This document shows, in pieces, positions 17,877 through 35,388 of a DNA stretch of 37,782 bases. A model generated the notes under the pieces. That model searched no databases. It was given only the letters and a program-made list of their open reading frames with translations, and was not told the DNA's origin. The stretch's first letter is position 1, and each line of letters opens with the position of its first letter. A program made the position numbers and the translations under genes. Location: the NCBI GenBank assembly GCA_903904755.1, contig CAIVDV010000044.1:1-37782 (forward strand), read 5' to 3'. This DNA comes from an uncultured Acidobacteriaceae bacterium (GTDB lineage Bacteria; Acidobacteriota; Terriglobia; Terriglobales; Acidobacteriaceae).

Positions 17877-18359
17877 AGTGCGCTGATTTCACCCGGAAGA
17901 GCGACGTCGAACACGGCCGGATTCTGCGGAAAAGTTGTGCCTTCCAATGCGTTTTCCGGAGCAGGTAACCATGCAAAAGGGGGGGTGGGGTGTTTTTGCC
18001 ATTTTCCCCCTGCTCAAGTGGTTGAAAATATGAGACTTGACGGGTGGTTACCGGGTGCATTTTATGCCGTTTTTGTGCACTTTTTGCGCGTTTTGGGGGG
18101 ATTTTGAAGCTCGCCCTCGGCAACGGTCCCGCTGCCGGGCTGGTTTTTCGGATGAGTTCTGACATGGAAAATCCCCCTCTGGATGACTGCTTCCATTGTG
18201 TGCTTTTGGGAGAAATTCCCGGCAGGGCCGCAAGGGATTTCTTTTGGGGCGTAGTGGTTTTTTTTGTTGGGTTTGGCGCTCGCGGGGAAATTTGGGGCGC
18301 TTGACAAGTCAGGGATCAGGGGTCAGGGGTCAGGGGTTACGGCTTGAGTGATTTTCGGG
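17877..18359. other. G/T-rich non-coding region
   Basis: About 480 bp without a credible gene. It is full of homopolymer runs: seven G near 17980, eight T near 18250, several runs of four to six T or G. It also has short echoes such as GGTTACC and TGCATTTTATGCC / TTTTTGTGCAC between 18040 and 18085. The composition is clearly unlike its neighbours. It could be a non-coding RNA, a repeat element or decayed DNA; none can be shown. Confidence 0.35.
18309..18336 (+). repeat. Tandem heptamer TCAGGGG
   Basis: Three exact copies of TCAGGGG (18316-18336) preceded by one degenerate copy (TCAGGGA, 18309-18315). It lies just downstream of the Xre gene stop. It is a short G-rich microsatellite of unknown role. 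Confidence 0.75.
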
Positions 18360-18970: not shown

Positions 18971-20449
18971 ATGAGCGGAAGCGGGTTGATTCTGGGGATT
19001 GAGTCGTCTTGCGATGAGACGGCGGCGGCGGTGGTGGAGCGGGGCGAGCGGACGCTGGGGAGCGTGGTGGCCTCGCAGATTGGGCTGCATGCCGCGTATG
19101 GCGGGGTGGTGCCGGAGTTGGCAAGCCGGGAGCATCTGCGAAATGTGGTGCCGATTGTGCGCGAGGCGCTGCGGCAGGCGGGCTGTGGGTTGGAGGATTT
19201 GGACGCGATTGCGGTGACGAACGGGCCGGGGCTGGCGGGTGCTCTGCTGGTGGGGATTACGTATGCCAAGGCGCTGGCGTTTGCGCTGGGGAAGCCGCTG
19301 ATTGCGGTGAATCACCTGGAAGGGCATATCCACGCGGTGCTGCTGGAGGAGCGGCAGAGGGGGAAAGGCAGCGGAGTTAGCGGGGTTAGCGGGGTTAGTG
19401 GGGTTAGCGGGGTTAGCGGAGTTAGTGGGGTTAGTGGGGTTAGTGGGGTTAGCGGGGTTAGTGGGGTTAGCGGGGTTAGCGGGGTTAGTGGGGTTAGCGG
19501 GGTTAGCGGGGTTAGCGGTGGGGTGGAGGACGCGGGATTGGTGGTTCCCACCCATTCGGCAAAGAGCGCCGAATGGATGGGGCACCCGGCGAGGGTGGGG
19601 CACCCGGAGGTGGGTACAGGACGGGACACTGAAGGCGTGGACTGGGGGATGGCGATGCCGGCGCTGGCGCTGGTGGTGTCGGGTGGGCATACGCACTTGT
19701 TTCTGGCGCGGCCGCATGCTGATGGGCCGGCGGGCGGATGGCGGTATGAGCTGGTGGGCCGGACGCTGGATGACGCGGCGGGCGAGGCATTTGACAAGGT
19801 AGCGAAGCTGCTGGGGCTTGGATATCCGGGTGGGCCGTGGATTGACAATCTGGCGCGGCTGGGCGATCCCAGGGCGGTTCCGTTCCAGTTTGCACAGATC
19901 AAGGTGAAGTCGCACCTGGAGGGGAAGGCACCGAGGACGAAGGGTGCGCTTACGGCTCCGATTGCGGACCTTGACCGGCATTTTCTGTTTTCGTTTTCGG
20001 GAATCAAGACGGCGGTGCTGAGGCATGTGGAGACACACGGGATGCGGGCCGCGGCTGAGGCACGTGCGGCGGCGCTGCTGGAACTGGGAGCGAGTGGGCG
20101 GGCGGTGACGTGGCAGGACGCGGCGCCGCTGTGCGACCAGGCGACGCTGGATTTGATTGCGAGCTTTCAGCACGCGGTGGTGGAGAACCTGGTACGGCGG
20201 ACGATGGCGGCGGCCGAGGCGGTGGGCGCGGCGAGCGTGCTGGTGACGGGCGGGGTGGCGGCGAACCGGGAGCTGCGGGAGAGATTTGCGGCTGAAGCGG
20301 CGAAGCGCAGGCTGCCGGTGGCGTTCCCAACGCTGGCGATGTCGACCGACAATGCGGCGATGATTGCGGCGGCGGCGTGGCCGCGGTTTTTGGCTGGGGA
20401 TTTTGCGGGGCTGGAGCTGGAGGCGAATCCGAGGTTGGTGTTGGTTTAG
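18971..20449 (+). CDS. tsaD: tRNA N6-adenosine threonylcarbamoyltransferase TsaD with repeat-derived insert
   Basis: This cytoplasmic enzyme transfers the threonylcarbamoyl group to A37 of ANN-decoding tRNAs, with TsaB and TsaE. The ASKHA/Kae1 hallmarks are present: GIESSCDET near the start, metal ligands His115 and His119 (NHLEGH), VSGGHT (His240), [19 protein letters not shown], and STDNAAM with ligand Asp460. At 492 residues it is about 150 longer than usual. Most of the excess lies between HLEGH and VSGGHT, where E. coli has about 19 residues and this protein about 115. The insert starts with sixteen Ser-Gly-Val units (134-181) encoded by a 9-bp tandem array and continues through a palindromic repeat (encoding [13 protein letters not shown]). 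It probably forms a disordered surface loop. A second, smaller insert lies near residues 360-390. The stop TAG sits at the edge of another array. Confidence 0.95.
19370..19513 (+). repeat. 9-bp tandem array inside tsaD, 16 units
   Basis: Sixteen uninterrupted 9-bp units. The main unit is AGCGGGGTT and variants have GGA for GGG or AGT for AGC. Because the unit is a multiple of three, it is read in frame as (Ser-Gly-Val)16. On the opposite strand it reads as repeated Leu-Thr-Pro. Related arrays lie at 20451-20549 and 25123-25158. Confidence 0.97.
19541..19590. repeat. Palindromic element copy 1 (within tsaD)
   Basis: GTGGTTCCCA is followed by a perfect 9-bp inverted repeat (CCATTCGGC 19552-19560 / GCCGAATGG 19568-19576) and then ATGGGGCACCC. 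It shares its left end (GTGGTTCCCAC) and right end (GGGGCACCC) with copies at 20570, 27911 and 31651, while the stem sequence differs between copies. Here it is translated as part of TsaD. Confidence 0.85.
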
Positions 20450-20450
20450 C

Positions 20451-20549
20451 GGGGTTGGCGGAGTTAGCGGGGTTGGCGGGGTTAGCGGGGTTGGCGGGGT
20501 TAGCGGAGTTAGCGGGGTTAGCGGGGTTAGCGGGGTTAGCGGAGCTAGT
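20451..20549 (+). repeat. 9-bp tandem array downstream of tsaD, 11 units
   Basis: Eleven units of GGGGTTAGC or its variants (GGGGTTGGC, GGAGTTAGC, final GGAGCTAGT). The array begins one base after the tsaD stop codon, and the TAG itself is the TTAGC part of the preceding partial unit. The unit is the same as in the array within tsaD, shifted in phase. Confidence 0.95.
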
Positions 20550-20569
20550 GCGCAGAGGACGGGGGATTG

Positions 20570-20609
20570 GTGGTTCCCACGTCCCAAATGCGGGACGTGG
20601 GGCACCCGG
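20570..20609. repeat. Palindromic element copy 2
   Basis: A perfect 10-bp inverted repeat CCCACGTCCC (20576-20585) / GGGACGTGGG (20592-20601), loop AAATGC, within the shared frame GTGGTTCCCAC...GTGGGGCACCC. It follows the second 9-bp array after a linker (GAGGACGGGGGATTG) that closely matches the linker after the tsaD array (GAGGACGCGGGATTG). Confidence 0.85.
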
Positions 20610-20774: not shown

Positions 20775-22253
20775 ATGAGTGTGCGATTATTTAATACCTT
20801 GAGTGGACAGCAGGACGAAGTGACGGCCGCGGATGGCGACGTGCTGCGGATGTATGCCTGCGGGCCAACCGTTTATGACTTTGGCCATATTGGCAATTTC
20901 CGGACGTTTCTGCAGGTGGATATTCTGCGGCGGACGCTGAAGCTGACGGGGATGAAGCTGCGCCACGTGATGAATATTACGGACGTGGACGACAAGATTA
21001 TCCGGAATGCGACGGCGGCGGGGATTCCGATTGGGGAGTACACGGCGAAGTATACGCAGGCGTTTCTGGAGGATCTGGCGAGCCTGCAGATTGAGGAGCC
21101 GGAGATATTGTCGCGGGCGACGGAGCATATCCCCGAGATGACGGCGCTGGTGGAGAAGCTGGCGGAGGCCGGGGCGGCGTACAAGACCGAGGACGGGAGC
21201 TGGTACTTCAGGCTGGCGGCGTTCCCGGAGTACGGCAAGCTGAGCAAGAAGGACCTGGAGGGGATGACCGACGGCGCGCGGGTGGACGTGGACGAGTATG
21301 AGAAGGACTCGGCACGGGACTTTGCGCTGTGGAAGGCTACCAAGCCGGGGGAGACGAGCTGGGAGACGCCGATTGGGCCAGGGCGGCCTGGGTGGCACCT
21401 GGAGTGCTCGGCGATGGCGATGAAGTACCTGGGCGAGAGCTTTGATCTACACGCTGGCGGCGAGGATTTGATGTTTCCGCACCACGAGAACGAGATTGCG
21501 CAGAGCGAGAGCGTGACGCATAAGCCGTTTGCGCGGCACTGGTTCCATGTGCGGTTTTTGCTGGTGGACGGTCGGAAGATGTCCAAAAGCGAAGGGAACT
21601 TCTTTACGCTGCGGGATTTGCTGCTGAAGGGGTATCGTGCCTCGGCGATTCGGCTGGCGTTGATTTCGGTCCCGTACCGGCACCAGTTGAACTTTACGTT
21701 CGACGGGCTGACGGAGGCGACGAACGCGATTGACCGGCTGCGAACGTTTGTAGAGCGGCTGAAGGGCGCGACGCTGGCGGCGGGGACGACGGACGAATTG
21801 CAGGCGGCGGCGGCGAAGGCTGAGGCGGAGTTTGTGGCTGCGCTGGAGAACGACCTGAATACGGCGGAGGCGCGTGCCCCGATTTTTGACCTGGTGCGGA
21901 CGGTGAACGCGGCACTGGATACGGGCAAGGTGCTGGCGGGCGACCGGGAGCGGGCGCTGGAGGTTCTGGCGAAGTTTGACGCAGTGTTTGCGGTGGTGGC
22001 GGATAACGATGCCGCACCGACGGCTGCGGCGCTGGCGTGGGCTGAGGCGAGCGGAAGGATGGAGCTGGTTGCGCCGGAGCTGCTGGCGCGGCAGTCGATT
22101 ACGGACGCGGAGATTGAAGGGCTGATTGCGGAGCGGAACAATGCGCGGAAGCAGCGGAACTTCAAGCGGAGCGACGAGATTCGCGATGAGCTGGCGGCGA
22201 AAGGTGTCATGATTGAGGACTCGCGCGAAGGCGTGAAGTGGAAGCGGAAATAG
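20775..22253 (+). CDS. cysS: Cysteinyl-tRNA synthetase
   Basis: A 492-residue class I aminoacyl-tRNA synthetase that charges tRNA-Cys. The HIGH signature is GHIGN (from residue 37), within CGPTVYDFGHIGNFRTF, where Cys29 is the first zinc ligand. Further zinc ligands lie in WHLECSAM (Cys near 211) and in the HHENEIAQSE region (about 236-245). The KMSKS loop is exact (268-272, KMSKSEGN). The C-terminal helical anticodon-binding part ends in ERNNARKQRNFKRSDEIRDELAAKGV, the usual end of this enzyme. Length and layout are normal. It follows tsaD on the same strand but is separated from it by 325 bp of repeats, so it may have its own promoter. Confidence 0.97.
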   Translation: MSVRLFNTLSGQQDEVTAADGDVLRMYACGPTVYDFGHIGNFRTFLQVDILRRTLKLTGMKLRHVMNITDVDDKIIRNATAAGIPIGEYTAKYTQAFLEDLASLQIEEPEILSRATEHIPEMTALVEKLAEAGAAYKTEDGSWYFRLAAFPEYGKLSKKDLEGMTDGARVDVDEYEKDSARDFALWKATKPGETSWETPIGPGRPGWHLECSAMAMKYLGESFDLHAGGEDLMFPHHENEIAQSESVTHKPFARHWFHVRFLLVDGRKMSKSEGNFFTLRDLLLKGYRASAIRLALISVPYRHQLNFTFDGLTEATNAIDRLRTFVERLKGATLAAGTTDELQAAAAKAEAEFVAALENDLNTAEARAPIFDLVRTVNAALDTGKVLAGDRERALEVLAKFDAVFAVVADNDAAPTAAALAWAEASGRMELVAPELLARQSITDAEIEGLIAERNNARKQRNFKRSDEIRDELAAKGVMIEDSREGVKWKRK

Positions 22254-25092: not shown

Positions 25093-25122
25093 GGGATGGA
25101 TTTATGGTATCGCCTTTTCAGC

Positions 25123-25158
25123 GGAGCTAGCGGGGTTAGCGGGGATAGCGGAGCTAGT
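25123..25158 (+). repeat. 9-bp tandem array 3, four units
   Basis: Four degenerate units: GGAGCTAGC, GGGGTTAGC, GGGGATAGC, GGAGCTAGT. It is the same unit as in the arrays inside and after tsaD. Like array 2 it ends with GGAGCTAGT. Confidence 0.88.
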
Positions 25159-25182
25159 GGGATGGTTGAGGTCGAGGGAGTA

Positions 25183-25205
25183 GTGGTTCCCACCCAGCGG
25201 GTGGC
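25183..25205. repeat. Palindromic element copy 3 (short form)
   Basis: GTGGTTCCCACCC followed by AGC and GGGTGGC: a 6-bp stem with a 3-nt loop. It keeps the shared left end GTGGTTCCCAC but lacks the right end GGGGCACCC. It again follows a 9-bp array after a G-rich linker of about 24 bp. Confidence 0.7.
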
Positions 25206-25209
25206 GTTT

Positions 25210-25256
25210 AGCGAGTTAGCTGCGGCTTCGCCGCAGTAGCAAGTTAGCAAGTCAGC
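25210..25256. repeat. AGTTAGC hairpin element copy 1
   Basis: AGTTAG leads into a perfect 7-bp stem CTGCGGC (25220-25226) / GCCGCAG (25230-25236) with a TTC loop, followed by TAGCAAGTTAGCAAGTCAGC. A second copy with a different stem sequence lies at 31127-31165. The flanking TTAGC motif is also the core of the 9-bp arrays. Confidence 0.7.
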
Positions 25257-27910: not shown

Positions 27911-27956
27911 TTCCCACATCTCCCGGCAAAAGACGCCGTGAGATATGGGGCACCCG
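27911..27956. repeat. Palindromic element copy 4 (fdx-iscX gap)
   Basis: TTCCCAC...TGGGGCACCCG frames a 15-position inverted repeat (27913-27927 / 27935-27949) with two mismatches. Its ends match copies 1, 2 and 5. It fills most of the gap between fdx and iscX, so it is transcribed in the isc mRNA. Confidence 0.8.
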
Positions 27957-31081: not shown

Positions 31082-31126
31082 GGTTGATAACAGCGAATCG
31101 TTCGAAGCTGGGTTGACCAGGAGCAG

Positions 31127-31165
31127 CAAGTTAGCCGCGGCTCAGCCGCGATAGCAAGTCAGCAA
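31127..31165. repeat. AGTTAGC hairpin element copy 2 (iscA-hscB gap)
   Basis: CAAGTTAGC, then the stem CGCGGCT (31136-31142) / AGCCGCG (31144-31150), then ATAGCAAGTCAGCAAGT. The flanks match copy 1 at 25210-25256 while the stem bases have changed in a compensated way. It lies in the intercistronic gap of the isc operon. Confidence 0.7.
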
Positions 31166-31175
31166 GTTCTGTGGG

Positions 31176-31650: not shown

Positions 31651-31699
31651 GGTTACTCCCACCCTTTCCGCAAAAAGCGCGGAAAGGATGGGGCACCCA
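31651..31699. repeat. Palindromic element copy 5 (iscU-iscA gap)
   Basis: GGTTACTCCCA, then a perfect 9-bp stem CCTTTCCGC (31663-31671) / GCGGAAAGG (31679-31687) with loop AAAAAGC, then ATGGGGCACCC. The ends match copies 1, 2 and 4. It lies between iscU and iscA and is therefore transcribed in the operon. Confidence 0.85.
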
Positions 31700-35311: not shown

Positions 35312-35388
35312 AGGCGCGTAGCTCAGTTGGTTAGAGCGCTTCCTTGACACGGAAGAGGTCGTTGGTTCGAATCCAATCGTGCCTACCA
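35312..35388 (+). tRNA. tRNA-Val (anticodon GAC)
   Basis: A 77-nt cloverleaf with acceptor stem AGGCGCG / CGTGCCT (one G-T pair), D-arm GCTCAGTTGGTTAGAGC, anticodon stem CTTCC / GGAAG around loop TTGACAC, T-arm with GGTTCGAATCC, discriminator A and encoded CCA. The anticodon GAC reads GUC/GUU valine codons. Its 3' end borders an integrase gene, so it is the likely island attachment site. Confidence 0.96.

Follow-up and report, generated by a model that had tools for sequence, protein, structure and literature searches.

The composite repeat described here has counterparts in several bacterial systems, as far as the available portions of the papers cited describe them. RAYT genes flanked by inverted REPs are known, as are BIMEs, which are mosaics of short repeats (PMC2817692, PMC6006769; see also PMC3116915). 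Our repeat resembles this REP/BIME/REPIN and RAYT (TnpA-REP) complex in having short dispersed palindromes, with a RAYT gene lying between two inverted ones, in combining hairpins with other short motifs as a mosaic, and in stems that vary while their pairing is kept. It departs from it in that the complementary strand next to the stem reads CGGGTGC, and not the 5'-foot GT[AG]G given for REPs (PMC6006769, PMC2817692), in that stems vary strongly within one genome, and in that the hairpin has a tandem array attached. We call the hairpin REP-like, but because its foot lacks GT[AG]G we do not class it among the canonical REPs, although it appears to work like one.

TIRYT genes and TIRtrons, which include a group from Acidobacteria, have RAYT-like transposases with inverted repeats that lack the GTAG tag, some in repeated families (PMC3733652). 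The acidobacterial members share with our system a RAYT-like transposase flanked by untagged inverted repeats, while the foot, GGGGCACC, differs from the published TIR motif GGGGWSAS when compared by eye with the available text description (PMC3733652). The G-rich heptamers of Xanthomonas and Nostoc are likewise tandem units (GGGGACT occurs there and here), often four in number, near gene ends and sometimes in convergent pairs, but the available text links no hairpin module or transposase to them (PMC4692102). The BOX repeat of pneumococcus is also a composite, with a tandem part whose copy number varies; however, it has another sequence, belongs to other bacteria and, in the available account, carries fixed modules on both sides of its tandem part (PMC3049150). 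In a search of the open-access literature, no description of a RAYT-linked hairpin fused to a G-rich array came to light. REP hairpins and G-rich tandem arrays, short bacterial repeats that as a rule are discussed separately, are here physically joined in a fixed order and polarity.

Three copies around tsaD

The window, by which we mean the whole stretch of 37,782 nucleotides that was analysed, from an uncultured Acidobacteriaceae bacterium, contains tsaD at 18971-20449 (Pfam PF00814) and cysS at 20775-22253 (PF01406). By direct reading and TRF, an array, a G-rich linker and a palindrome stand together at 19370-19607 (element A, hosted by tsaD), at 20446-20609 (element B, which begins in the tsaD stop codon and stops short of cysS) and at 25120-25203 (element C, upstream of a minus-strand gene for an EamA-type transporter), the third palindrome being degenerate. 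The parts of these elements and the other related sites in the window are as follows:

18255..18337, plus strand: leader-like module (91.7% over 24 bp) ending CTTGACAA, then a 7-bp GGGGTCA array
19370..19518, plus strand: element A, 9-bp array of about 16 units, in frame in tsaD as a Gly-Val-Ser repeat (TRF: 16.6 copies)
19517..19542, plus strand: element A, G-rich linker GGTGGGGTGGAGGACGCGGGATTGGT
19543..19589, plus strand: element A, long-class REP-like hairpin, foot GGGGCACCCGG
19590..19607, plus strand: element A, what is left of another hairpin, of type CTAGCCAC..GTGGCGAGG, namely its 3' end (CGAGGGTGGGGCACCCGG), assigned by eye
20446..20549, plus strand: element B, 9-bp array of 11 units that overlaps TAG, the stop codon of tsaD (TRF: period 9, 10.8 copies, 20446-20542)
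20550..20571, plus strand: element B, linker GCGCAGAGGACGGGGGATTGGT
20572..20609, plus strand: element B, short-class REP-like hairpin, foot GGGGCACCCGG
25120..25156, plus strand: element C, 9-bp array of 4 units, the first and last being GCGGAGCTA
25157..25204, plus strand: element C, G-rich linker and degenerate hairpin GGTTCCCACCCAGCGGGTGG (5' arm only)
27913..27954, plus strand: REP-like hairpin, foot GGGGCACCCGG, without array
31658..31697, plus strand: REP-like hairpin, foot GGGGCACCCGG, without array

An earlier note on this DNA had reported 11 units after tsaD and 16 units inside it, each followed by nearly the same linker and a palindrome, and both descriptions hold: at the 3' end of the gene the array is followed by AGAGGACGGGGGATTGGT and then GGTTCCCACGTCCCAAATGCGGGACGTGGGGCACCCGG, within the gene by GGAGGACGCGGGATTGGT and then GGTTCCCACCCATTCGGCAAAGAGCGCCGAATGGATGGGGCACCCGG, and the linker common to the two is AGGACGSGGGATTGGTGGTTCCCAC. 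The third copy that it listed, four units with a G-rich linker and a short palindrome near 25123-25205, is also present, its units being read from 25121 and its palindrome consisting of the 5' arm only. The 9-bp unit on which that description was built is correct for elements A, B and C, but arrays elsewhere may be 7-mers and the fuller element has further modules. No hairpin was seen after the leader and GGGGTCA array at 18255..18337. A repeat of another type, a GC hairpin (GCTGCGGC..GCCGCAG) with TAGCAAGT units, lies at 25213-25256 and 31124-31170 of the window and occurs also at L203.

A REP-like hairpin family and a linked RAYT

The 3' end of the element is a REP-like hairpin with a constant foot, TGGGGCACCCG, and a variable stem. 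Copies occur on both strands, and the pattern CCCAN{8,38}TGGGGCACCCG has 37 matches in the genome itself against one in the reversed control, nested matches being counted, which makes the hairpin a short palindrome in many dispersed copies, as RAYT-associated REPs are. The same pattern is frequent in seven congeners (G001 25, G002 53, G007 23, G009 30, G010 35, G011 46, G012 31) and sparse in the others (two each in G004 and G014, none in five), with 2 matches in total among the reversed controls of 25 genomes. The matches in G007 are nested ones of a short hairpin type, CCCACCCAAGCGG..TGGATGGGGCACCCG, and partly clustered; that genome has no RAYT match. A stricter pattern for the whole hairpin, GGTTCCNACN{4,34}GGGGCACC, finds seven matches genome-wide, of which one (C46) looks like chance, and none in the control; another, GTGGGGCACC, was over-strict (matches in 3 of 41 genomes) and was set aside for the broader patterns. 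That the parts are chance neighbours in a G-rich genome might be argued from the 11-mer GTGGTTCCCAC, which is scarcely commoner than its reversed control (7 against 5 genome-wide) and is for that reason weak evidence alone. The hairpin counts (7 against 0, 37 against 1) speak against such coincidence, as do the association of hairpins with arrays and the shuffles of a mini-palindrome given below, and we reject it as highly improbable.

Folds of at least nine pairs were found at 39 of the 43 hairpin sites scanned in this genome, a scan that left out six loci (L285-L290) judged to be chance matches in coding sequence. Stem pairing among 11 of its own 40-mers reaches 98.6%, and 21 Watson-Crick pair types occur there, against means of 84.7% and 15.8 after shuffling; among 18 congener sequences the stems are 94.0% paired against 82.1%. 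The foot and the outer four pairs are invariant in both sets, which were partly selected on them. Distinct inner arms number 8 among the 11 own and 12 among the 18 congener hairpins, a pattern that resembles continual re-pairing more than copies of one sequence.

Covarying stems would also be expected of a functional RNA or terminator that acts at gene ends in transcripts, by termination, stabilisation of 3' ends or G-quadruplex control, and that was dispersed by ordinary duplication and selection. Array B does overlap the stop codon of tsaD, and Xanthomonas and Nostoc have comparable G-rich arrays close to the ends of genes, but the study that described those arrays was unable to find a regulatory role for them (PMC4692102). 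Element A, moreover, is in frame inside tsaD, copies lie on both strands and are RAYT-linked, and an Rfam search of the window gave one match, a tRNA at 35312-35385. We regard a transcript function as decidedly unlikely to account for the repeat.

One Y1 transposase in this genome, on C57, exceeds the RAYT cut-off (NF047646, 105.9-106.9 bits against 80), and its gene (L134) is flanked by inverted hairpins ending GGGGGCACCC, with a GGGGCA-type foot. The comparison of the palindrome with REPs made in the earlier note is supported, and the REP-associated transposase for which it advised a search has a candidate in this RAYT. Our survey of RAYT flanks took in 30 loci from relatives and from this genome, of which 25 could be framed (L125 of G002 is among those outside the framing). 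The six RAYTs most similar to our own, of 24 matched (L132, L137, L150, L135, L121 and L142), all have inverted hairpins with GGGGCA-type feet, although the foot departs after GGGGCA in L135 and L142, and one side of L142 reads GGGCACC; less similar RAYTs have other flanking repeats, or none by the framing method used, and the one RAYT locus examined in G009 (L128), like that in G011 (L129), is not foot-flanked. The hairpins at L150 belong to the long class seen in element A, those at L137 to the short class of element B. The hairpins around our own RAYT have a stem type unlike those in the window, and the upstream one, CCCCGGTCCCCAAGTGCGAGGGACCGGGGGCACCC, recurs letter for letter in the composites L322, L329 and L339, where it is preceded by heptad or nonamer arrays (L329 and L339 satisfy the array rule given below, and L322 has a weaker array).

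Across the genus, at least 20 hairpin matches are found in 7 of 7 genomes with a RAYT over the cut-off and in 1 of 8 without (P 0.0014), the exception being G007 with its 23; the cut of 20 in this Fisher test was set after the counts had been seen, and related genomes are not independent. Two other candidates for the cognate enzyme were rejected: the Y1_Tnp on C15 is a transposase of the IS200 type (63.3 bits against a cut-off of 55), the copy on C9 falls below the RAYT cut-off (75.9 bits against 80), and the flank fetched for each lacks a foot hairpin. The idea that the element was spread by an enzyme coded elsewhere stands in so far as a RAYT exists on C57 and its flanking hairpin recurs in composites; mobilisation by that RAYT is inferred. 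The hairpin would be a non-coding unit, recognised single-stranded and probably processed in trans by the C57 RAYT.

Arrays joined to hairpins

Under a single array rule (period 6-10, score at least 11 within 130 bp), an array lies 5' of 11 of the 39 hairpins in this genome and 3' of two, and 28 have none. Heptads or nonamers make up 10 of the 11 arrays on the 5' side (that at L206 is of a 6-mer) and neither of the two on the 3' side. The chance expectation is about 0.07%, a rough figure that rests on a rough count of 45 arrays. The genome-wide search by which the earlier note would have refuted the association thus did not refute it. Among congener hairpins, taken from 20 regions each of G010, G001 and G002 (35, 25 and 53 matches) and pooled, an array is 5' of 2 and 3' of 1 in 68, and the difference on the 5' side is clear (11/39 against 2/68, Fisher P 0.0002). 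Since so few congener hairpins have a 5' array, the association belongs largely to this lineage. In another set of 23 hairpins from relatives, some of them already among the 68, two had an array 5' and one had an array 3'. The fusion is rare rather than unique, because another Acidobacteriaceae MAG has a clear case, an array and then a complete hairpin (L075), and L087 is a variant. Acidobacteriota account for 17 of the 32 array stretches found in named genomes outside this species.

The claim of the earlier note that unit, linker and palindrome recur as one arrangement is supported, and that arrangement is polar, but arrays and hairpins are also found singly: beside the 28 hairpins without an array, 7 of the 14 own nonamer loci read have no hairpin, six have a complete one within 170 bp or just beyond, and element C has a partial one. 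Among 23 heptad loci read by eye, four are followed by a footed hairpin and three by a variant, with three further matches outside this count.

The fuller modular order begins with an array of G-rich units of 7 or 9 bp, continues in many copies with a TCGAGC-n-GCTCGA mini-palindrome, and then has a linker of about 30 nt, the hairpin CCCA..TGGGG and CACCCGG. The mini-palindrome followed by CCCA has 46 matches in this genome (the palindrome being read both ways), none in the control and at most two per congener; it is absent from all three of the window's elements A, B and C. In 33 distinct contexts, an array lies within 65 bp on the 5' side in 12 and on the 3' side in one, against 0.075 in shuffles; excluding L001 and L049, which were fetched through their arrays, the count is 10 of 31. 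Farther out, an array is 5' in 1 of 32 contexts and 3' in none. A hairpin end lies 3' of the mini-palindrome in 29 of the 33, a biased figure because contexts came partly from a pattern requiring the downstream CCCA and partly from hairpin loci; the regular expression behind it was written after contexts had been seen.

These contexts bear on a further reading, that of target preference, by which the hairpin inserts beside pre-existing G-rich arrays, perhaps where G-quadruplexes keep the DNA open as single strands, and the two are neighbours and not one element. The units do differ between copies (7-mers and 9-mers) and free-standing arrays are common. However, many loci share the mini-palindrome and linker between array and hairpin; in G011, where hairpins (46 matches) and nonamer arrays both occur, none of the six nonamer loci read has a hairpin within 170 bp; and an order of variant units is common to four loci. 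This last, GCGGAGCTA, GCGGAGTTA, GCGGGGTTA and GCGGAGCYA, is found at L343, L347, L351 and L355 (the last without a hairpin) with different flanks, and was retrieved with a pattern fixing the first two units only; because it recurs in this way, an array can be copied as a module. We consider insertion beside existing arrays improbable, if less so than a transcript function, and favour a joined, modular repeat.

The arrays themselves differ between loci in having 7- or 9-bp units, and at L339 and L011 heptads are followed by nonamers. Among own nonamer arrays of at least three units, 24 of the 26 read have 3-5, a preference for about four that is typical of G-rich heptad and nonamer SSRs; for this reason the 16 and 11 units of elements A and B are outliers. 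A leader of about 50-60 bp (GTGGTTTGTTTTGTTGGG..GGTTGACA), ending in a -35-like TTGACA, precedes arrays at L193, L328, L331, L338, L340, L203 and 18255-18310 of the window; 5' of nonamer arrays, GTGGTTTGTTTTGTTGGG..TTGACA is confined to a few loci, among them L193, L328, L331, L338 and L340. Mirrored nonamer pairs, an array, a short core and an inverted array, occur at L060, L062, L078, L081 and L354. A different composite, TCGAGCTTCGCTCGA and then a hairpin of the GACAGCC..GGCTGTC type, makes up many of the 11 and 15 matches in G020 and G023, which belong to other genera.

Orthologous sites and a proposed origin of the joined form

The loop of tsaD that holds element A could be read in 21 of 28 loci from relatives, 12 of them congeners, and none of the 21 has an array or hairpin there, the loop being short; in 8iey chain A, the best solved homologue matched, the same junction is two residues. 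Element B is missing from the tsaD-cysS gap in G002 and G011, the congeners in which that gene order was recognised, where by eye about 20-35 bp separate the tsaD stop from a conserved TACAAT box, against about 240 bp here. Both positions therefore have relatives without the copy; neither a target duplication nor an exact insertion boundary was found, the insertion edges not being fixed to the base. At element A's loop in G001, another species, tsaD (L096) has degenerate heptad-like G-runs without a hairpin; this fits insertion beside existing arrays, and the TsaD loop may be a place where such repeats land or grow repeatedly.

Taken together, we think it somewhat probable that the repeat is a BIME-like mosaic of short repeats, in which a REP-like hairpin was joined to a G-rich array and spread to several loci in this lineage. 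On the 5' side the hairpin would have gained a linker, often the TCGAGC-n-GCTCGA mini-palindrome, and a 7- or 9-bp G-rich array. The joined form would then have spread to several loci, array and hairpin perhaps moving together, as is supported by the shared module order and by orthologous sites without copies. At tsaD two copies lie 1 kb apart, and slippage during replication would be the simplest way for their arrays to have reached 16 and 11 units, given that 3-5 is the usual number. Element A is presumably tolerated within tsaD because it is in frame and in a surface loop.

If the two modules do travel jointly, a single-strand transposase would offer expandable arrays a way to become established beside genes and, once, inside an essential tRNA-modification gene. 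A wider and much more tentative proposal, which we think rather doubtful, is that the G-rich 7- to 9-bp arrays of many bacteria are not purely products of slippage, but modules travelling with RAYT-handled hairpins, whose joined form is caught here. If true, it would account for the seeding of telomere-like repeats prone to form G-quadruplexes, both at the ends of genes and within them.

Two observations concern the genes around the arrays. At heptad loci between codirectional genes (L027-L056, G000), the G-rich strand is opposite the genes in 13 cases against 0, of 19, and heptads are closer to the 5' gene in 10 of the 19, which is no signal of asymmetric distance; both counts come from a crude ORF caller. 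Nonamer arrays also lie in an apparent alanyl-tRNA synthetase gene, named by eye, at about 1500 in both L344 (G022) and L348 (G011), about the same place in two genera, and P0002 (G022) is open across the array.
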